Shown piece after piece: positions 3,440 to 33,071 of a stretch of DNA of 33,071 nucleotides. The notes beneath the pieces are model-generated. The model was not told the DNA's origin. It searched no databases and saw only the letters and a list, made by a program, of their open reading frames with translations. Source of the stretch: a virus; the IMG/VR virus record IMGVR_UViG_3300031227_000232, positions 1-33,071 of that record, one strand, 5' to 3'. The number at the start of each line of letters is the position of its first letter. Positions within the stretch are counted from its first letter, which is position 1. Position numbers and translations under genes: made by a program.

Positions 3440-4771
3440 GTGAAAGTAAAATACATAGAAGTTATTGGAGCTGGGTACGTTGGCCTTGTTACAGCGGCTT
3501 GTTTGGCTGATAAAGGTCATTATGTGATGTGTGTTGATACTGATGAAGAAAAAATCAAATTATTAAAAGATGGTATTATTCCAATACATGAGCCGGGATT
3601 GAAAGAATTGATTGTTGAAAATCAAAAACAAGGTCGTTTGCTTTTTTCATCAAATTTCAAATTTATGTTAATGAATCCTGATTTTATTTATCTCGCAGTG
3701 GGCACACCGTCAAATGAAGATGGTTCTGTAAATCTTTCTTATCTGAAATCGGCGGCAATCTCAGTAGCTCAACGATTATGTGCAAAAACCATTATTATCT
3801 GCAAGAGTACCGTTCCTGTGGGTACGAATAAAATGCTCGCAGAATTGATTGATTCCCACACTGATGTTCCATTTGAAGTCGTAAGTAATCCCGAATTTCT
3901 TAAAGAGGGATCAGCTATTGATGATTTCAATAATCCTGATAGGGTTGTGATTGGTAGTCGGAGTTCAGCGGCTTCAGACAGGGTTGAAGAATTGAATGAT
4001 TTTGAAAATGGTTCCGTTTATAAAGTTATTAAAGCATTCCCGGAATCAGCCGAATTGATAAAGTATGCCTCTAATGCTATGCTTGCTTCTAGGATTAGTT
4101 TTATTAACGAGATTTCTAATCTGTGTGAACATTGTGGGGCTGATATTGATGAGGTTAAAGAGGGTATTGGGGCTGATAAGCGAATAGGTGGAGCATTTTT
4201 GAACCCAGGTGTAGGTTATGGGGGTTCGTGTTTCCCAAAAGATATTCAAGGTTTAGCACAAATGGGAAATGAAAATAATATTATTCTAAGAACAGTAGCG
4301 GCAATATTTGACGCCAATGAACTACAAAAACGGGTGATGTATGTTAAACTTTATAGTTATTTTCGGGATAATTTGTACAATAAACGAATCGCTATTTGGG
4401 GATTGGCTTTCAAACCTGAAACAGATGATATACGAGAAGCTCCGGCTTTATCATTGATTAATACTTTGTTAGACGTTGGTGTAACAGTAGTTGTGCATGA
4501 CCCAGAGGCAATGGACAATGTCCGGGCGATTTATGGTGATAAGTTGATTTATTGCAATAATAAAGAGGATGCCTTGGATAATGCCGATGCTTTAGTGATT
4601 ATGACAGAGTGGGATGATTATAAATGGAGTCAATTTCTGGAAATGAAAAACAGAATGAAAAAGCCGGTAGTGTTTGATGGCCGAAATATCTATAAACCCT
4701 CTGTAGCGAAGATGGGTGGTCTTACTTATATCAGTATGGGTCGAAAATCTGTTAATGTAGAGGAAAAATAG
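3440..4771 (+). CDS. ugd: UDP-glucose 6-dehydrogenase
   Basis: This enzyme oxidises UDP-glucose to UDP-glucuronate with two NAD+. The N-terminus has a Rossmann NAD site (VIGAGYVGLV), the middle has the family motif SNPEFLKEGSA, and the catalytic cysteine is C264 in GYGGSCFPKD. The C-terminal nucleotide-binding domain includes WGLAFKPETDD. The length, 443 aa, is normal and the gene looks intact. An earlier in-frame TTG (3407) exists, but GTG 3440 sits 9 bases after AAAAGGGA and gives the normal Rossmann start, so I chose it. It is the only sugar-metabolism gene here and lies inside a replication operon. It may serve surface polysaccharide change or DNA base glycosylation; both are inference. 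Confidence 0.93.
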   Translation: MKVKYIEVIGAGYVGLVTAACLADKGHYVMCVDTDEEKIKLLKDGIIPIHEPGLKELIVENQKQGRLLFSSNFKFMLMNPDFIYLAVGTPSNEDGSVNLSYLKSAAISVAQRLCAKTIIICKSTVPVGTNKMLAELIDSHTDVPFEVVSNPEFLKEGSAIDDFNNPDRVVIGSRSSAASDRVEELNDFENGSVYKVIKAFPESAELIKYASNAMLASRISFINEISNLCEHCGADIDEVKEGIGADKRIGGAFLNPGVGYGGSCFPKDIQGLAQMGNENNIILRTVAAIFDANELQKRVMYVKLYSYFRDNLYNKRIAIWGLAFKPETDDIREAPALSLINTLLDVGVTVVVHDPEAMDNVRAIYGDKLIYCNNKEDALDNADALVIMTEWDDYKWSQFLEMKNRMKKPVVFDGRNIYKPSVAKMGGLTYISMGRKSVNVEEK

Positions 4772-5228: not shown

Positions 5229-5303
5229 ATGAAGACAACTGTTTGTGAAAATAAATTAATTATAGAAACATTCACTTTTGGTTGTAGTGTATGTCTTTTG
5301 TAA
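5229..5303 (+). CDS. Possible 24-aa peptide inside the structured RNA
   Basis: ATG 5229 has an AGGAG (5213-5217) 11 bases upstream and the ORF ends at TAA 5301-5303, directly before the terminator stem. The peptide has 24 residues with three cysteines and a hydrophobic end (FGCSVCLL). It might be a small protein or a leader peptide. The two ends of the ORF pair with each other in the RNA rod, which argues for RNA function. Either or both may be real. Confidence 0.3.
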   Translation: MKTTVCENKLIIETFTFGCSVCLL

Positions 5304-5340
5304 AGTCCCCAAGGACTCTAAAACTTGGGGACTTTTTTTT
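5304..5340 (+). terminator. Strong rho-independent terminator of the structured RNA
   Basis: GTCCCCAAG (5305-5313) pairs perfectly with CTTGGGGAC (5324-5332), followed by eight T residues (5333-5340). The loop contains GACTCTAAAA, most of which is complementary to the loop of hairpin 1 in the same RNA. Confidence 0.9.
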
Positions 5341-5389
5341 ACAAAGGATGTTAATTATACTACAAAACAATCAATTCGGAGGTTTTCCC

Positions 5390-6457
5390 ATGCCTAAAAG
5401 TAACTACTTTCGACTACCAAACTGCTGGACAGACATAACTCACGACATAACGTCTTTGTCTGAATTAAAGGTTATTGAGTATGTATTACGACATACTTGG
5501 GGATTTGACGAATATGAAAAGCCTAAGAGAATAACAATAAATGAGTTCATTATGGGCCGGAAAAAAAGAGATGGGAGTAGGATGGACAAAGGTACAGGAT
5601 TATCTGAACCTTCTGTGATAAGAGGATTAAAAAAAGCAGTAGAAAATGGTTACTTAGAAGTCGAGTTGGACGGAAGGGATATGGCACGAAAAAAGAAGTT
5701 TTATTATCTAAGAATGGCAAAAAAAGATGAACCATCAAAAGTTAAGTCCAGACCTAAAGAAGTGACAGTTAGCTCTAAAGAAATGATAGTCAGACCTAAA
5801 GAAACGTTAGTTGGCTCTAAAGAAACGTTAGATCGTACAGAGAAAGACACTATAAAGAAAGACACTATAGAAAGAAACTTAATAGATAACTATTTGTCGA
5901 ACCCTCCCGGGCCCGACGAAGTTACTGTAGTTTTTAATAAGTCTTTGAAAAATAATAAGTCTGCGGAAAAAAAGACGAAGTCTACAACTCCTTCTAAATT
6001 TGATATAAGAGCCGCCAAGAAACTTCACAAAATAGTATCCTCTTACATAACCATAAACTGCCGTTCAAAAATAAGTGAGTGGTCAAAACATTTTCGGTTA
6101 ATGAGAGAATATGATAAAGTACCGGCTCCTAAAATTAAAGAGGCATTATTGTGGTTTGAGAAAAATATAGGAAAACTCTACGTTCCCGAGTGTTTTTCAG
6201 GAAAGTCTTTTCGGGAGGATTATAACGATGGAAAAATCCAAGCTGCTATGATTCGAGAGAAGGAAGATGAAAAAAGAATACAGAAAAAGAAGAATATGGC
6301 GAGTGGTGATGTTTATTACGGGGATATTAACGTAAGGTACGTGCAGAGTAAGTATTTCACCAAACACGGATTTGGGCCTGCAAATCAAAAACAACTTGAT
6401 GAGGTATTGGTAGAAATGGGATATTCTCCCGGTGCTGTGCCTTCTAGTAAGATTTAA
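5390..6457 (+). CDS. O-like replication initiator protein
   Basis: The N-terminal 110 residues form a winged-helix of the phage replication protein O type: LPNCWTDITHDI, LSELKVIEYVLRHTWGF, then LSEPSVIRGLKKAVENGYL. A Lys/Glu-rich repetitive linker follows (about residues 115-165), encoded by tandem iterons, then a C-terminal domain that would contact the helicase or loader. An in-frame start exists at 5291, but it lies inside the terminator; ATG 5390 has GGAGG 7 bases upstream. The DnaB-like helicase is next downstream, the classic initiator-helicase order. The length is 355 aa. Confidence 0.8.
   Translation: MPKSNYFRLPNCWTDITHDITSLSELKVIEYVLRHTWGFDEYEKPKRITINEFIMGRKKRDGSRMDKGTGLSEPSVIRGLKKAVENGYLEVELDGRDMARKKKFYYLRMAKKDEPSKVKSRPKEVTVSSKEMIVRPKETLVGSKETLDRTEKDTIKKDTIERNLIDNYLSNPPGPDEVTVVFNKSLKNNKSAEKKTKSTTPSKFDIRAAKKLHKIVSSYITINCRSKISEWSKHFRLMREYDKVPAPKIKEALLWFEKNIGKLYVPECFSGKSFREDYNDGKIQAAMIREKEDEKRIQKKKNMASGDVYYGDINVRYVQSKYFTKHGFGPANQKQLDEVLVEMGYSPGAVPSSKI
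5750..5833 (+). repeat. Four tandem 21-bp iterons (likely replication origin)
   Basis: Four units of exactly 21 bp at 5750, 5771, 5792 and 5813 share the core CTAAAGAA, with alternating AGACCTAAAGAA and (A/G)GCTCTAAAGAA forms. They lie in frame in the linker of the initiator gene and encode an RPKE/SKE repeat. Phage lambda has its origin iterons in the same place, inside gene O between the DNA-binding and helicase-binding domains. The origin role is inferred from that parallel. Confidence 0.7.
5841..5870 (+). repeat. Two tandem 15-bp A-rich repeats beside the iterons
   Basis: AGAAAGACACTATA occurs at 5841-5854 and again at 5856-5869, with a 15-bp period. The purine/A-rich strand bias directly after the iterons resembles the AT-rich unwinding region that follows the lambda iterons. 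The repeats encode KDTIKKDTIERN in the initiator. Confidence 0.6.
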
Positions 6458-7994: not shown

Positions 7995-8100
7995 GAAAAT
8001 ATCAACTATTTTGATAAAATTTCCATTTTTTGTGACAATTGAGTCGGTTTTTAACAGATAATAGTGTAGAGGATTTGTTTTAGGGAAAGGAGTTAGAATA

Positions 8101-9135: not shown

Positions 9136-9214
9136 CTCCCGGTAGCATAAGTGGGAATGCGACCCTCGTTATTATTATAGAGGGATTATGTGGGTTCGAA
9201 TCCCATCCGGGTGG
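9136..9214 (+). tRNA. tRNA-like gene with a 12-nt anticodon loop
   Basis: The cloverleaf is almost canonical. Acceptor CTCCCGG (9136-9142) pairs with CCGGGTG (9207-9213) except for one T-T mismatch. The D arm is GCAT-AAGTGGGA-ATGC, the variable loop ATTAT, and the T arm GTGGG-TTCGAAT-CCCAT (9190-9206). The anticodon stem is CCCTC/GAGGG (9163-9167, 9180-9184), but the loop GTTATTATTATA has 12 nt instead of 7. The anticodon is therefore uncertain; TTA occurs three times in the loop. It may be inactive, or a modified or decoy tRNA. Confidence 0.6.
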
Positions 9215-10177: not shown

Positions 10178-10839
10178 GTCGAATATCTGAAATGAAGAAC
10201 AAGTTGAATGATGCTCCGACTGATATTTTGTCGGTGCTTGCTGGTGGTCTATTAAAAACAGGTGATTTTATAAATCAGTTGGGTTATTCTACTGCTGATT
10301 TTTATTTTACCAAAGCAATAGGAGATAATCGAGGTGAGTGGGATGATTCAGTACATCAATGGGCATTGTCAGATTTGATTGAGAAAGAGGAAGTTCAGTG
10401 GCAGTATGATGAGCATCTCAATGTTTGTTATGCGTTGAAAGACACTTGGTTAAAAGAAGAGTGTGGGGAAGATTCGTTTTCTCTTATTCGTATTGAGAAA
10501 TTTCTTAAAAAGATATCAAATTTAATTGCAATTCCTATTTTGGATAAGGATGGGAATTTTAATGTTCCAAGACCAAGAGATGTGAATCAGAGGAGTTGGG
10601 ATTTGCTTTCTTTTAATATATGTGAGATTAGTAATAAAAAGGGAGATGATTGTCGAAACATATATTGTGATGGAGAAAAAGTAATTGTGTTGGATTATCA
10701 TTTTGTTGTGGGGGTGGAGGGGAAAGATAAAACTACTATTGAGTTTGTTTGGCCGGAAATTGAATCAAACCCAGAAAAAGTAGCGGAAGCTGTATTAACT
10801 TTATTGAAAGAAGAACAAAATGAAGATAAACAGAGTTAA
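10174..10839 (+). CDS. Unknown protein (221 aa)
   Basis: ATG 10174 follows AAAAGGATTTGAT. The product is acidic and mixed alpha/beta, with an N-terminal helical half and a beta-rich C-terminal half (KVIVLDYHFVVGV, IEFVWPEIE). It overlaps the clamp gene by 20 bp, so translation is likely coupled, which hints at a role in replication. I recognise no motif. Confidence 0.7.
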   Translation: MSRISEMKNKLNDAPTDILSVLAGGLLKTGDFINQLGYSTADFYFTKAIGDNRGEWDDSVHQWALSDLIEKEEVQWQYDEHLNVCYALKDTWLKEECGEDSFSLIRIEKFLKKISNLIAIPILDKDGNFNVPRPRDVNQRSWDLLSFNICEISNKKGDDCRNIYCDGEKVIVLDYHFVVGVEGKDKTTIEFVWPEIESNPEKVAEAVLTLLKEEQNEDKQS

Positions 10840-11828: not shown

Positions 11829-13013
11829 ATGGGTTTTTGTTGTCTAAAAACAGATTCAAAAAAACATGTTAGTACAAGACCATCTTGTGGTGCATGTGGT
11901 TTGTCTCGAAAATGTGTATCTCCTAAAATGAAGCCTATGGGTTTGGGCAAAAAGGAAATACTCATAGTGGGAGGTACGCCGGGACATCGTGAAGATAATG
12001 AAGGTATTCAAGTAGCTGGTGTGTCTGGTTTGTTTTTGACTAATACTTTGGCTAAGTTGGGAATTGATTGTTTTGGTGATTGTTGGTATACCAACGCTGT
12101 CCTTTGTAAGACTGGGAATGTGAAGAATCAATCGAAGTACGTTGATTTTTGCCGTCCTACTTTGTTGAAGACAATAAAAGAGTTGAAGCCTAAAGTCATA
12201 ATTTTGTTGGGTAATCTTGCGGTAAAATCATTAATAGCTCATACGTGGGGAAAAAATAAAGTAGGGTCTGTTGCGAGGTGGGCCGGTTTTCAGATACCTT
12301 GTCGGGAATATGATGCTTGGATTTGTCCTACTTATGAACCATTTTTTGTTAAACAAGAGGACCATCCAGCTTTAGATTTATTGTTTATGCAACATATCCA
12401 AAAAGCTGTTGAATTAAAAGGGCGTCCCTGGAATGGTAATGTGCCGGATTATGGTAAAGATGTGGAGTGTATTTATGAGGCAGACAAGGCTGCTAAAATA
12501 CTGCGAAAAATGATTAAGAGGGGTGGTAGAGTAGCTTTTGATTATGAAACCAATATGTTGCAGCCTTACGCGAAGGAAGCTCAGATTTTCAGTTGTTCGG
12601 TGTGTTGGGAGGGGAAGAAGACCATATCATTTCCGTGGCATGGTGAAGCAATAAAAGTTATGGGAGAATTGTTGCGGAGTTCTCTGAAAAAAATTGTGTG
12701 GAATTTGAAGATGGAAAAGGTTTGGTCAGAAAGGGAATTTGGTTTTGAGGTTAATAATTGGTTATGGGATGGAATGATAGCGGAGCATGTTATTGATAAT
12801 CGTCCGGGTCTAACTGGGTTGAAGACCCATGCGTTTCTTAGGATAGGACAACCAATATATGATGATGGAGTGAGTGAGTTTTTTAGGACGAAAAGACCTA
12901 ATACTCCGAATAGAATAGATCAAGCCGATTTGGGACGAGTGTTGAAGTATGGTGGCATGGATGCTTTGCTAACTTTTAAGATAGCTAAACAACATTTTAA
13001 GGAGATATTGTGA
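11829..13013 (+). CDS. Family-4 uracil-DNA glycosylase fused to a Pol I-type 3'-5' exonuclease
   Basis: Residues 1-190 match family-4 (Fe-S) UDG: CGAC (C20, C23), GGTPGHREDNEG in place of the GEAPGxxED motif, YTNAVLCKTGN, C108 before a P-x-V-I-I-L-L-G strand. C158 may be the fourth Fe-S ligand, but this is unproven. Residues 230-394 are a DnaQ-like exonuclease: D238-x-E240 in FDYETN, and Y-x3-D ending at D378 in YGGMDALL. The polymerase domain that normally follows is absent and encoded at 14316. UDG fused to a phage polymerase is known from SPO1-type phages. The protein would remove uracil and proofread during replication. Confidence 0.85.
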   Translation: MGFCCLKTDSKKHVSTRPSCGACGLSRKCVSPKMKPMGLGKKEILIVGGTPGHREDNEGIQVAGVSGLFLTNTLAKLGIDCFGDCWYTNAVLCKTGNVKNQSKYVDFCRPTLLKTIKELKPKVIILLGNLAVKSLIAHTWGKNKVGSVARWAGFQIPCREYDAWICPTYEPFFVKQEDHPALDLLFMQHIQKAVELKGRPWNGNVPDYGKDVECIYEADKAAKILRKMIKRGGRVAFDYETNMLQPYAKEAQIFSCSVCWEGKKTISFPWHGEAIKVMGELLRSSLKKIVWNLKMEKVWSEREFGFEVNNWLWDGMIAEHVIDNRPGLTGLKTHAFLRIGQPIYDDGVSEFFRTKRPNTPNRIDQADLGRVLKYGGMDALLTFKIAKQHFKEIL

Positions 13014-13708
13014 TTACACAAGGGGATTTAAGTGTTTGGGGATTTGAGTTATATCAAGGTGATTGTCTTGGTGTGATGAAAAATATGCTTGATAATTCAG
13101 TGGACATGGTTTTGACAGACCCTCCATATAATATTGCTAGAAAGAATAATTTTAAGACAATGGGAAGGTCGGGCATTGATTTTGGAGAGTGGGATAAGAA
13201 TGTTGATCTGTTTAGTTATATAGATGAGTGTTATAGGTTATTAAGAAAAAACGGCTCGTTTGTTGTGTTTAATGATTGGAAAAATCTTGGGGATATAGTT
13301 AAATATGCTGAAAAATTAGGGTTTGTGACGAAGGATTTATTAAGATTTGAGAAGACTAATCCAATGCCGAGAAATAGAGAACGTCGTTATGTAACTGATT
13401 ATGAATGTGGTATTTGGTTCGTAATGCCAAAAGCTAAATGGATTTTTAATAGGCAACATGACAAGTATCAGCGTCCAAAGTTTGTGTATTCTATTGATAG
13501 GGGTTTTCATCCTACTCAAAAAAGTCTGAGGTTGATGGAGGATTTAGTTAGAATACATACTAATGAAGGTCATATTGTTTTTGATCCATTTATGGGCAGT
13601 GGCACAACTGGAGTAGCTTGTTTGAAATTAAATCGAGATTTTGTTGGGGTTGAATTGGATGAGGGGTATTTTAAGACAGCTAAGAAGCGGATCGAGGGGG
13701 TGTTATAA
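13010..13708 (+). CDS. Beta-class DNA methyltransferase (likely N6-adenine)
   Basis: Motif IV, DPPY, is in VDMVLTDPPYN (about residues 37-45), and motif I, DPFMGSGTTGVAC, is near residue 185. Motif IV before motif I is the beta-class order of CcrM and HinfI. The length, 232 aa, is normal. The start is GTG 13010, overlapping the exonuclease stop, with AAGGAGA just upstream. No restriction enzyme is nearby, so it is an orphan enzyme, probably protecting phage DNA. The first 30 residues (GFELYQGDCL) are nearly identical to the damaged methyltransferase at 20298. It interrupts what would be one polA gene. Confidence 0.85.
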   Translation: MITQGDLSVWGFELYQGDCLGVMKNMLDNSVDMVLTDPPYNIARKNNFKTMGRSGIDFGEWDKNVDLFSYIDECYRLLRKNGSFVVFNDWKNLGDIVKYAEKLGFVTKDLLRFEKTNPMPRNRERRYVTDYECGIWFVMPKAKWIFNRQHDKYQRPKFVYSIDRGFHPTQKSLRLMEDLVRIHTNEGHIVFDPFMGSGTTGVACLKLNRDFVGVELDEGYFKTAKKRIEGVL

Positions 13709-13806
13709 TGCAAAAAACATGGTCGGAAAAGACTTTTGGTTTTGAAGTTGGGAATTGGTTATGGGATGGTATGATAGTCGAACAACATTTTGAGGAGATG
13801 GAATGA
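13708..13806 (+). pseudogene. Relic of a second 3'-5' exonuclease copy
   Basis: This 32-codon ORF, MQKTWSEKTFGFEV then NWLWDGMIVEQHFEEME, matches two separated parts of the exonuclease at 11829. Its first 25 codons match 12715-12789 (19 of 25 residues, about three quarters of bases). Its end, QHFEEME, matches the exonuclease C-terminus, QHFKEIL (from 12990). The join is at a short GATAGC direct repeat present at both places in the intact gene (12777 and 12980), as expected for a slippage deletion. It lies directly after the methyltransferase and probably makes no useful protein. Confidence 0.75.
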
Positions 13807-19433: not shown

Positions 19434-20225
19434 GTGAGTAAATTAAAAGTAGATCGACGATTGAGTGTTGCTTTTTCTGATCATCATATTCCATTTCAGT
19501 CAAATCTGGCTTGTAGAATGGGCTTTAATTTTGTGAAGGATCATAAGCCCGGACTCATCCATCTCCTTGGGGATATTGGGGATTTTTACACATTATCAAA
19601 ATTCGATAAGGATGTCAGTAGAAAGGCTACACTTCAAGACGATTTGGATGCTGTGAATAGATTTTTGGCAGAGTTAAGAGATGTAGCTCCAGATGCTAAG
19701 ATTATTTACAGTGAAGGAAATCACGAATTTCGATTACGTCGTTATTTGAGAAGTGATGCAAAGGCGTTGGAGAGTTTAAGGGCTTTGAATTTGGATAAGT
19801 TGTTGGATTTTGAGAAACACAATATTCAATATGTAGAACAAGATAAGCCTTATCGAGTGGGTCCGTTGTTGTTTACGCATGGACAATTAGTTCGCAAGTG
19901 GAGTGGAGCATCGGCCAAGGCTCATTTTGAGAAGTTTGGTTGTAATGTACTTCATGGACATACTCACCGATTAGGTTCTTTTTATCATCGGGATGTTTCA
20001 GATCATTATGGGGCTTGGGAAAATGGGTGTATGTGTACATTAAATCCCGAGTATGTCACCGCTCCAGACTGGCAGCATGGTTGGTCGGTCATTTGGTCGC
20101 AACGGGATTATTTTCATGTAGAACAGATTTGTGTTATCAAAGGCCGATATAATTATCATGGGAAGATGGAAGGCCGCCGTAAGTTATCTCCTAGTGCTTA
20201 CTTTGATATTAAGGATTTGGGATAA
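19434..20225 (+). CDS. Calcineurin-like metallophosphoesterase
   Basis: The metal-binding motifs are in order: SDHHIPF, LGDIGDFY, EGNHEFRL, THG and HGHTH. These define a two-metal phosphoesterase. GTG 19434 has AAAAGG nine bases upstream; ATG 19425 is in frame but touches the same site and is less likely. It is a second enzyme of this class besides SbcD at 26702 and has no capping domain. Phages often encode such enzymes near SSB or RecA. The substrate (nucleotide, RNA end or protein) cannot be read from the sequence. Confidence 0.85.
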   Translation: MSKLKVDRRLSVAFSDHHIPFQSNLACRMGFNFVKDHKPGLIHLLGDIGDFYTLSKFDKDVSRKATLQDDLDAVNRFLAELRDVAPDAKIIYSEGNHEFRLRRYLRSDAKALESLRALNLDKLLDFEKHNIQYVEQDKPYRVGPLLFTHGQLVRKWSGASAKAHFEKFGCNVLHGHTHRLGSFYHRDVSDHYGAWENGCMCTLNPEYVTAPDWQHGWSVIWSQRDYFHVEQICVIKGRYNYHGKMEGRRKLSPSAYFDIKDLG

Positions 20226-20297: not shown

Positions 20298-21065
20298 ATG
20301 TTTAATAAAATAGGAGATTTGGGTTTGCAAGGATTTGAGTTATACCAAGGTGACTGCCTTGATGTAATGAAAATTATCCCTGACCACTCGGTGGATATGA
20401 TTCTTGCAGACCCTCCTTAGCTTTATGGCACAACTGTGTGTAAGTGGGATTCAATTATACTACTAGAGCCAATGTGGGAACAGTTGAAACGAGTGATTAA
20501 ATCCAATGGTGCTATTGTTATGACAGCCAGCCAGCCGTTCACTACAACCCTTATAGCGTCTAATATGAAGATGTTTAAGTATTCTCTTGTGTGGAAGAAG
20601 TCGAAAGTGTGCCATTTTGCTCAAGCACCATATAGATTTTTAACCGAACATGAGGACATTGTTGTTTTCAGCTATGGGGGTACGTCTAAGAACGCCAAGA
20701 TTAGAATGACATACAACCCACAAGGGCTACGGGATTGTAATATAAAGTGCAAAGGTAAAGCTCATAGCGACCACAGGCCCTCAAAAATCAAACAAGCTGA
20801 TTACGTCCAGACAAAGACAGGCTACCCAAGATCTATAATAGAGGTTAAATCTGATACAGCCAAAGTCCACCCCACCCAAAAGCCAGTAGCCCTAATGGAA
20901 TATTTAATCAAGACATACACCAACGAAGGTGAGTTGGTTTTAGATTTTGCCGCTGGAAGTGGCACTACTGGAGTAGCTTGTAAGAATTTGAATAGGAATT
21001 TTATTCTTATTGAAAAAGAATCAAAATATTGTAAAATAGCGAAAGAAAGAATAAATAACGGATAA
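20298..21065 (+). pseudogene. DNA adenine methyltransferase with amber stop in its catalytic motif
   Basis: Read from ATG 20298 the frame runs to 21065 (255 codons) except for TAG at 20418-20420. The TAG falls exactly where motif IV, DPPY, should have tyrosine: the sequence reads ILADPP-stop-LYGTT. A one-base change from TAT or TAC explains it. Motif I, DFAAGSGTTGVAC, is intact near the C-terminus. The N-terminus (GFELYQGDCLDVMK) nearly equals that of the methyltransferase at 13010. The downstream part is less G/T-skewed and richer in C than neighbouring genes, suggesting recent transfer. TAG is an ordinary stop in this genome, so the gene is probably dead unless suppressed. Confidence 0.8.
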
Positions 21066-31711: not shown

Positions 31712-31812
31712 TCATACTTTGTAGTAGAGGCCCGATGGGTTTACATGATAAAAAAGGCCCGGCGAGAGATAGCATAATAGAGGAATAATCCTTTAACAGA
31801 GGCCCGCCGGGT
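31699..31812 (+). other. Two look-alike RNA hairpins with different stems
   Basis: Hairpin A: CCCATCG (31699-31705) pairs with CGATGGG (31733-31739). Hairpin B: CCCGGCG (31758-31764) pairs with CGCCGGG (31805-31811). In both, the seven bases before the 3' stem are AGAGGCC (31726-31732 and 31798-31804), and each has a small inner hairpin (AAGT/ACTT; AGGA/TCCT). Stem sequences differ but pairing is kept, which supports RNA-level selection. A T-rich tail follows only weakly. The element overlaps the stop of the upstream gene. Confidence 0.6.
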
Positions 31813-31826
31813 ATAAAACGGCTGCA

Positions 31827-31858
31827 TATCGTCAATAATCACGATAGCGGAACTTTTT
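31827..31858 (+). terminator. Possible weak terminator upstream of the alpha-CTD-like gene
   Basis: TATCGT (31827-31832) pairs with ACGATA (31841-31846); five T residues come 7 bases later (31854-31858). Spacing is poor, so this is a weak call. Confidence 0.3.
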
Positions 31859-31908
31859 CTACGCATGGCAGATAAGCTAATCAAGTAATATACAGTAAAA
31901 GGGTTTTT

Positions 31909-32166
31909 GTGTCAATGAGAATAGTTAATCAGTTGCTTATTAAAGAATATCTCGATCTTCCGGTATCTATACTAGAAGAATATGGGATGTCATATAGTTG
32001 TCTGAATCAATTAGAAGATCGTTTTGGGGTGATTTGGTTGCGGGATTTAGTGGATTTGACGGAAGAGGATTTGCGGAAGGGGTGGTTTGGTAATTTTCGC
32101 ATAAGGATGATTCGTCGAACAATTCAGCAGTTTTTGAAAAATAGAGAAATTGACAAACGAAAATAG
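31909..32166 (+). CDS. RNA polymerase alpha-CTD-like protein (85 aa)
   Basis: The segment YSCLNQLEDRFGVIWLRDLV, then LTEEDLRKGWFGNFRIRMI, matches the alpha-CTD pattern of N-C-L-x-x-A-x-I-x-x-I-x-D-L followed by T-E-x-x-L and a helix-hairpin-helix glycine. Several residues that in E. coli contact DNA or activators are changed (R265 becomes Met, K298 becomes Phe). There is no alpha N-terminal domain, so it cannot assemble like normal alpha. GTG 31909 lies five bases after AAAAGGG; ATG 31915 is an alternative. The last codons are the first unit of the 22-bp repeat array that follows. It may bind AT-rich DNA. Confidence 0.55.
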   Translation: MSMRIVNQLLIKEYLDLPVSILEEYGMSYSCLNQLEDRFGVIWLRDLVDLTEEDLRKGWFGNFRIRMIRRTIQQFLKNREIDKRK

Positions 32167-32511
32167 AGAATTTCCTAAACCAAAATAGAGAATTTTCTAA
32201 ATCAAAATAGAGAATTTCCTAAATGAAAATAGAGAATTTCCTAAATGAAAATAGAGAATTTCCTAAATGAAAATAGAGAATTTCCTAAATCAAAATAGAG
32301 AATTTTCTAAATCAAAATAGAGAATTTCCTAAATGAAAATAGAGAATTTCCTAAATGAAAATAGAGAATTTCCTAAATCAAAATAGAGAATTTTCTAAAT
32401 CAAAATAGAGAATTTTCTAAATCAAAATAGAGAATTTCCTAAATGAAAATAGAGAATTTCCTAAATGAAAATAGAGAATTTCCTAAATGAAAATAGAGAA
32501 TTTTCTACTTT
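32138..32511 (+). repeat. Tandem 22-bp AT-rich repeat array (17 units)
   Basis: Seventeen units of exactly 22 bp with no spacers. Unit 0 (32138-32159) is the diverged 3' end of the alpha-CTD-like gene. Units 1-16 (32160-32511) share AAAATAGAGAATTT and differ only at TCC/TTC, the last base (G or C) and the end units. The AATT-centred core TAGAGAATTTTCTA is an imperfect dyad. The period is two turns of B-DNA. No ORF crosses it. It could be an iteron, partition or regulatory array. Confidence 0.9.
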
Positions 32512-32699
32512 ATCCTACCTATTTGTCTTATCCAATTAGCCTATATTGCCTATCTTAACATCCTGGACGGTAGGCGTCTTTGGCTCTTATCGACCGATCT
32601 TACCATATTGTTAATCATTTTGCAACCCCATTATCTATTTAGCCTATCTTATCTTTTCATGTATTTTCAAAAAATAGGCCATATTTTCTATTTTCAGGG
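32512..32699 (+). other. Non-coding pyrimidine-rich spacer with GCCTAT motifs
   Basis: No gene is seen on either strand. The strand bias switches from the G/T-rich coding pattern to C/T-rich. GCCTAT occurs at 32539, 32548 and 32642, and its inverse ATAGGC at 32674. GACG-GTAGG-CGTC is a small hairpin within 32569-32585. It may be part of an origin or control region with the array. Confidence 0.5.
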
Positions 32700-32728
32700 T
32701 TGACAGCATACGATACGTAGTATATTGT
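32700..32728 (+). promoter_or_regulatory. Sigma-70-type promoter with overlapping dyad
   Basis: A perfect TTGACA (32700-32705) is followed at 17 bp by TATTGT (32723-32728), or at 15 bp by TATATT. The spacer holds ATACGATACGTAGTAT, a near-palindrome centred on TACGTA that could be an operator. It faces the small genes at 32774 and 32995. Confidence 0.6.
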
Positions 32729-32773
32729 TGTTTTAGTTGGTAACAAAAATTACTTTTGAACAGGAGAAAAATA

Positions 32774-32980
32774 GTGACTGAGAAAGAGGCCAAAGACAAA
32801 CTGCCCCGGGTCCGAGTTAAAATGCCAGACACGGAATACATGGGGCAGACAAAAGGCAGAAAATGCACATTTGCTACTGTGTGTATAAATTTTTCGGCAG
32901 TAGGTCAGATTGATTTTCAAACAAGCTGGAAACAAATCGCAGATTGTGTGACCAATGATAAACCAATTGTGTACTGTTAA
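32774..32980 (+). CDS. Small unknown protein (68 aa)
   Basis: AGGAG (32762-32766) is 7 bases before GTG 32774, which is chosen over the in-frame TTG 32756. The product has a basic N-terminal third (KEAKDKLPRVRVKMP) and a later beta-rich part. It is the first gene behind the strong promoter at 32700, as expected for an early or regulatory gene. No family is recognised. Confidence 0.6.
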   Translation: MTEKEAKDKLPRVRVKMPDTEYMGQTKGRKCTFATVCINFSAVGQIDFQTSWKQIADCVTNDKPIVYC

Positions 32981-32994
32981 AAAGGAGAAAAATC

Positions 32995-33071
32995 ATGTTA
33001 CTAACAGAATTGGAAAAGCAGATTACGATCGAAAATAACTACGATGAGCCGGATATTGCCGAATTGATTGA
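32995..33071 (+). CDS. 5' end of an unknown protein, cut by the window edge
   Basis: ATG 32995 follows AAAAAGGAGAAAAATC, a strong ribosome site, and the frame stays open to the window end (25 codons, MLLTELEKQIT to DIAELI). It is too short for any functional call. Confidence 0.6.
   Translation, partial: MLLTELEKQITIENNYDEPDIAELI

Follow-up and report, generated by a model that had tools for sequence, protein, structure and literature searches.

The window analysed here, a stretch of 33,071 nucleotides, is a complete IMG/VR record of a phage, and a contig 99.7–99.9% identical to it adds 11.66 kb leftward. It encodes a replication and recombination module comprising an SNF2-type helicase, an O-like/DnaD-like initiator, a DnaB-like helicase, a clamp-like protein, UDG-exonuclease and PolA polymerase genes, a clamp loader, a RecA-like protein, a 5'-3' exonuclease and an SbcCD-like nuclease. 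After this module stand an 85-codon gene (31909–32166, plus strand; GTG start at 31909 or ATG at 31915) and, from its last codons onward, a tandem array of 22-bp units (32138–32507, plus strand); the next operon begins at ~32.7 kb behind a promoter-like site. The array sits in a 604-bp intergenic gap, the largest in the 44.7 kb readable for this phage. The left-extending contig ends at window position 20159, which places the array outside its coverage; to the right, the record ends at 33071, ~560 bp past the array, and the survey of genes on that side is limited to this stretch.

Tandem Repeats Finder (TRF) described the array as having a period of 22 bp, 16.8 copies, 94% matches and no indels, with a score of 614 (the runner-up array in the window scored 88), and a unit-by-unit listing confirmed the 17 units of exact period that had been noticed from the sequence alone. 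Unit 0 (32138–32159; AAAATAGAGAAATTGACAAACG) is divergent, at ~16/22 bases, and encodes the last residues of the 85-codon gene, as the sequence-only reading had said: K-N-R-E-I-D-K-R-K is read through it, and the TAG stop (32164–32166) falls within unit 1. Units 1–15 (32160–32489; AAAATAGAGAATTTYCTAAAYS) vary only at sites 15 (C/T), 21 (C once) and 22 (G/C), which leaves 19 of the 22 positions invariant, and their types recur in the higher-order blocks B'CAAA, BCAA and BCCAAA. The last unit, 16, is incomplete, cut at AAAATAGAGAATTTTCTA. The AATT-centred dyad proposed earlier is present in the units (TAGAGAATTTTCTA) but imperfect, with one mismatched pair in TTTTC units (five of units 1–16) and two in TTTCC units. 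The array has 22% G+C and is non-coding; only short stop-free stretches occur across 32138–32770, as one would expect from a period that 3 does not divide. Its A-tracts are phased at 11 bp, and in 120-bp windows the phasing averaged 9.4 in the array against a genome mean of 3.2 and a genome 99th percentile of 9.7. Plus-strand array RNA folds better than shuffles (z −5.3) and minus-strand RNA no better, a difference we regard as a side effect of the quasi-palindromic unit. No isolated unit copies in other parts of the phage rose above the shuffle background, and none was convincing.

The flank directly after the array (32508–32700) contains partial inverted unit copies at 32630–32640 and 32683–32696 and has the lowest GC skew in the window, about −0.33 to −0.38 at 32501–32700, with strongly positive skew elsewhere in the genome. 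It leads to a sigma-70-like promoter match ahead of the next operon (32700–32728, plus strand; TTGACA-17-TATTGT, 10/12), of a kind no rarer in shuffled sequence, and to the first gene past the array (32771–32980, plus strand; 69 aa), which is without a family match. Searches with the proteins of the genes flanking the array gave no relatives, Rfam gave no match near the array, and no enrichment of DnaA boxes was found. On the other side, the intergenic region ahead of the 85-codon gene (31712–31908) holds two strong hairpins with minus-strand T-tracts and a minus-strand promoter-like site; reading leftward on that strand from 31915 down to ~31690, TTGACA-17-TATATT (11/12) is followed by the two hairpins with tails of 6–7 T. 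These signals could possibly specify a small RNA of ~130–190 nt, for which Rfam returned no match.

The A-tract phasing and the promoter-like site 190 bp downstream would fit a transcriptional element, that is, UP-element-like, operator-type or curved DNA serving the 32700 promoter or host RNA polymerase, or a decoy for a regulator, and a set of 21-nt direct repeats from phage TLS has drawn comparison with UP elements and with stoperators (PMC11447400). The array shares AT-rich tracts with the UP-element/alpha-CTD system, and its neighbouring gene has distant alpha-CTD similarity, but no core promoter adjoins it at a suitable spacing: UP elements are situated around −40 to −60, as against 190 bp here. 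Since shuffled sequence yields no fewer promoter-like matches and convincing isolated units are absent from the rest of the genome, we consider a transcriptional role unlikely.

The 85-codon gene had been called alpha-CTD-like from the sequence alone, a description that found weak support. Its protein has no match to the PF03118 family profile and nothing above threshold in Pfam, PDB sequences or NCBIfam. Profile comparison by hhalign with an alignment of eight alpha-CTDs gave a probability of 32%, rising to 58% after the homologue described below was added, compared with 0.2% for three other phage proteins. The alignment of the Bacillus subtilis alpha-CTD beat all 1000 shuffles and ranked the protein first among window ORFs for that query; the Escherichia coli domain was less clear, with 13/1000 shuffles equally good. 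AlphaFold models, which bear on the fold check proposed earlier, were poor (pLDDT 57 from a single sequence, 53 from two) and show helices ordered as in a SAM/HhH domain, while Foldseek searches with these low-confidence models listed SAM domains, Rad51 N-terminal domains and a cyanobacterial alpha-CTD, none of them significant. Alpha-CTD contacts UP-element DNA through Arg265, Asn268, Asn294, Gly296 and Lys298. By alignment, the phage protein keeps Asn268 and Gly296 and has Ser, Trp and Phe in place of Arg265, Asn294 and Lys298. An alpha-CTD-like identity for this putatively helical, SAM/HhH-type protein is thus plausible but weak.

Relatives were gathered by a RecA search, which yielded six syntenic contigs, and by an alignment search with the SbcC-like ATPase, which yielded 80 loci. 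A homologue of the 85-codon gene was detected only in the nearest relative found by the ATPase (L023, 58%), with tblastn at E = 0.001 and phmmer at 1e-4 in both directions. This homologue lies directly after the ATPase and runs into the following gene, whose start it overlaps with its stop, and the locus has no array. In L037–L039, a true PF03118 protein is encoded directly after the same ATPase gene (32.5 bits, cut-off 23.8), again without an array. Scans for tandem repeats in the relatives' loci and in ~592 kb from nine relatives found short non-coding repeats only, nothing like 17 × 22 bp; many of the contigs are fragments, and the absence of the array holds for the sequence read. Because homologues of the gene occur without an array and no such array is found in the relatives read, gene and array are separable, and the array is, as far as seen, restricted to this lineage. 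Comparable arrays were likewise absent within the fetched flanks of other phage alpha-CTD genes (Goe8, Morrill, Marley1013 and three faecal contigs), and neither the region nor the 85-codon protein in phages, nor the exact unit in IMG/VR, returned a match.

Several further observations emerged from the same sequences. Related phages carry small alpha-CTD-like genes within their replication modules: at 10581–10880 in L037, next to a GroES-like (Cpn10) gene, in L039, and at 3630–3908 in L098, where a weaker example stands behind RecA. Phage Morrill carries a two-copy 79-bp repeat near its alpha-CTD gene, and relative G009 has ~100 copies of the 6-bp repeat CGAGAC outside ORFs of at least 80 aa (L121, 8729–9585). 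Two candidate matches to the units were set aside: a relaxed triple-unit pattern in IMG/VR led to an AT-rich contig with three short spaced copies (L005), judged unrelated, and a double-unit search of GTDB genomes led to one two-copy palindromic site in a Chloroflexota MAG (L013), attributed to chance.

The separability of gene and array bears directly on the earlier proposal that the 85-codon protein binds and coats its own array, for partition, replication or transcription-factor capture. This proposal draws on the overlap of array and gene, the AT-rich units, the distant alpha-CTD similarity of the protein and the syntenic PF03118 gene in relatives. Against it, homologues without any array, the outcome that the proposal itself had said would count against it, do occur in L023, as does the array-free syntenic PF03118 gene in L037–L039; the gene–array pair, which the proposal had suggested seeking in related phages, was not recovered in those read; three of the five DNA-contacting residues are replaced; and no partition NTPase, the enzyme that together with a small DNA-binding protein adjoins partition centromeres (parS, parC, tubC), was present among the window proteins scanned with Pfam (a subset of ORFs). 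We therefore regard self-coating as very improbable and do not place the alpha-CTD-like product first among candidate binders of the array. Its more elaborate form, in which an alpha-CTD-like protein is the dedicated binder of a self-seeded 17-unit array and recruits host RNA polymerase or organises replication, appears more doubtful still. The 3' end common to gene and array is more readily understood as the site from which the array started. The same relatives bear on a packaging or late-region signal of pac or cos type, an idea prompted by relative G002, in which a TerL-like gene, recognised by reading the sequence, follows the same ATPase by ~5.5 kb. That relative lacks an array between ATPase and TerL, however, and the window ends ahead of any terminase gene, which makes such a signal highly unlikely.

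Several near-identical direct repeats of ~17–22 bp in helical phase characterize iteron arrays, and the 22-bp array has all of these properties. Compared with 72,556 plasmids, it matched a single record, plasmid paIh5 of Arsenophonus, where the match falls on four exact 21-bp repeats (TTCCTAAATCACGATAGAAAA) that immediately precede an RPA-family initiator gene (257 bits to PF10134). Related iterons stand ahead of RPA genes in plasmids from Arsenophonus and Fukatsuia, and Wigglesworthia pWb1 has them too. The phage unit agrees with the paIh5 iteron at 17–18 of 21 bases, whereas 4000 shuffles averaged 12.4 and reached at most 17 (two shuffles at 17, none at 18), a comparison that overstates the agreement because the pair is the best match of a whole-database search between AT-rich repeats. 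Like the array, the 21-bp iterons of these insect-symbiont plasmids are head-to-tail, AT-rich units of two helical turns, and the stretch TTCCTAAATC is identical. They differ in their core, (C/T)(C/T)TAAATC(A/C)CGA, the CGA of which is kept in the five plasmid loci compared but reads AAA in the array; in number, with 3–4 main tandem copies against 17 in the phage; and in placement, upstream of the rep gene rather than downstream of an unrelated small gene. Iteron arrays also have a cognate initiator gene close by, whose product binds the units, and replication depends on the site: the window contains no RPA gene, and its O-like/DnaD-like protein is encoded 26 kb from the array, with intragenic repeats of its own, in a survey that reaches ~560 bp past the array. 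Judged by sequence, the array thus seems to resemble RPA iterons in kind, not in membership.

Two phage systems offer further comparison. In the phage/plasmid P1, the 19-bp iterons of incA belong to RepA, lie directly downstream of a gene and titrate the initiator. The array studied here shares the position directly downstream of a gene, but that gene is not RepA-like and has homologues without an array, and the P1 units are 19 bp long. Phage lambda carries its iterons within gene O, so that it too has phage iterons in a replication region, but inside the gene. This phage has a candidate of the lambda kind elsewhere: in the middle of its O-like gene (5291–6457; PHROG replication initiation O-like, 7.5e-9), imperfect 21-bp repeats at 5749–5831, 26 kb from the array, may by analogy mark an intragenic origin. 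If they do, the 22-bp array more likely serves control or another purpose.

Other features were recorded elsewhere in the window. Positions 12723–12780, in the exonuclease gene, are repeated at 13720–13777 after a methyltransferase gene (13010–13708), and a methyltransferase fragment at 13040–13125 recurs at 20331–20416, ahead of a second methyltransferase; these repeated fragments suggest insertion of the methyltransferase gene into a split PolA gene, with later copying. Window positions 7995–8070 share with L003 (10–75) an upstream element, TATTTTGATAAAATTTYCATTTTTT then ACAGATAATAG, which resembles a phage promoter that includes an A/T-rich, UP-like portion. Rfam matched a tRNA at 9136–9214 (34.4 bits) that is absent from the ARAGORN output.

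Unit 0 is coding and divergent and the gene's stop lies inside unit 1, which suggests that the array began with a tandem duplication of this gene's 3' end, in the 85-codon gene; the recurrence of unit types in blocks suggests that it then grew by multi-unit duplications. Such a history is also what a neutral satellite would have: slippage or unequal recombination could have amplified a 22-bp stretch at the gene's 3' end, leaving a functionless array whose homogeneity reflects recency. The higher-order blocks are expected from multi-unit duplication, the seed unit coincides with the 3' end of the gene itself and all relatives read are without an array, so that conservation does not show a function for it. 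Yet a non-coding array of 370 bp is conspicuous in a compact phage genome, with none comparable in the ~592 kb from nine relatives; its exact two-turn period has not suffered a single indel; and it adjoins a flank of reversed skew and a promoter-like site. We consider a neutral satellite a realistic possibility, nearly as likely as a docking site.

On balance, we tentatively interpret the locus as a lineage-specific, iteron-like, non-coding tandem array whose most likely role, held with somewhat less than even confidence, is that of a multi-copy docking site for a phage initiator or regulator. A protein-binding site is plausible by analogy, given the iteron-like architecture and the partial match to RPA plasmid iterons. 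The exact period, phased A-tracts, largest intergenic gap, reversed-skew flank, promoter-like site and paIh5 match count in favour of docking; the replacement of the invariant CG of RPA iterons by AA, the lack of an RPA gene in the window, the absence of DnaA-box enrichment and of a conserved array in relatives, and the more classical origin candidate inside the O-like gene count against it, as does the fact that near-identical units also fit recent slippage. Mechanistically, spacing by two helical turns would align identical sites along the same face of the helix and could allow cooperative protein loading, as by replication initiators on plasmid iterons; such loading might open or regulate an origin, or titrate the protein.

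Small alpha-CTD-like genes, some of them clear PF03118 members, turn up repeatedly in this group's replication modules and are worth following separately. If the array does bind an initiator, a little-known group of uncultured phages would have an iteron-type control locus that either supplements or replaces a lambda-O-type origin, and this locus would be a test case for iteron sets arising from coding sequence through tandem duplication.
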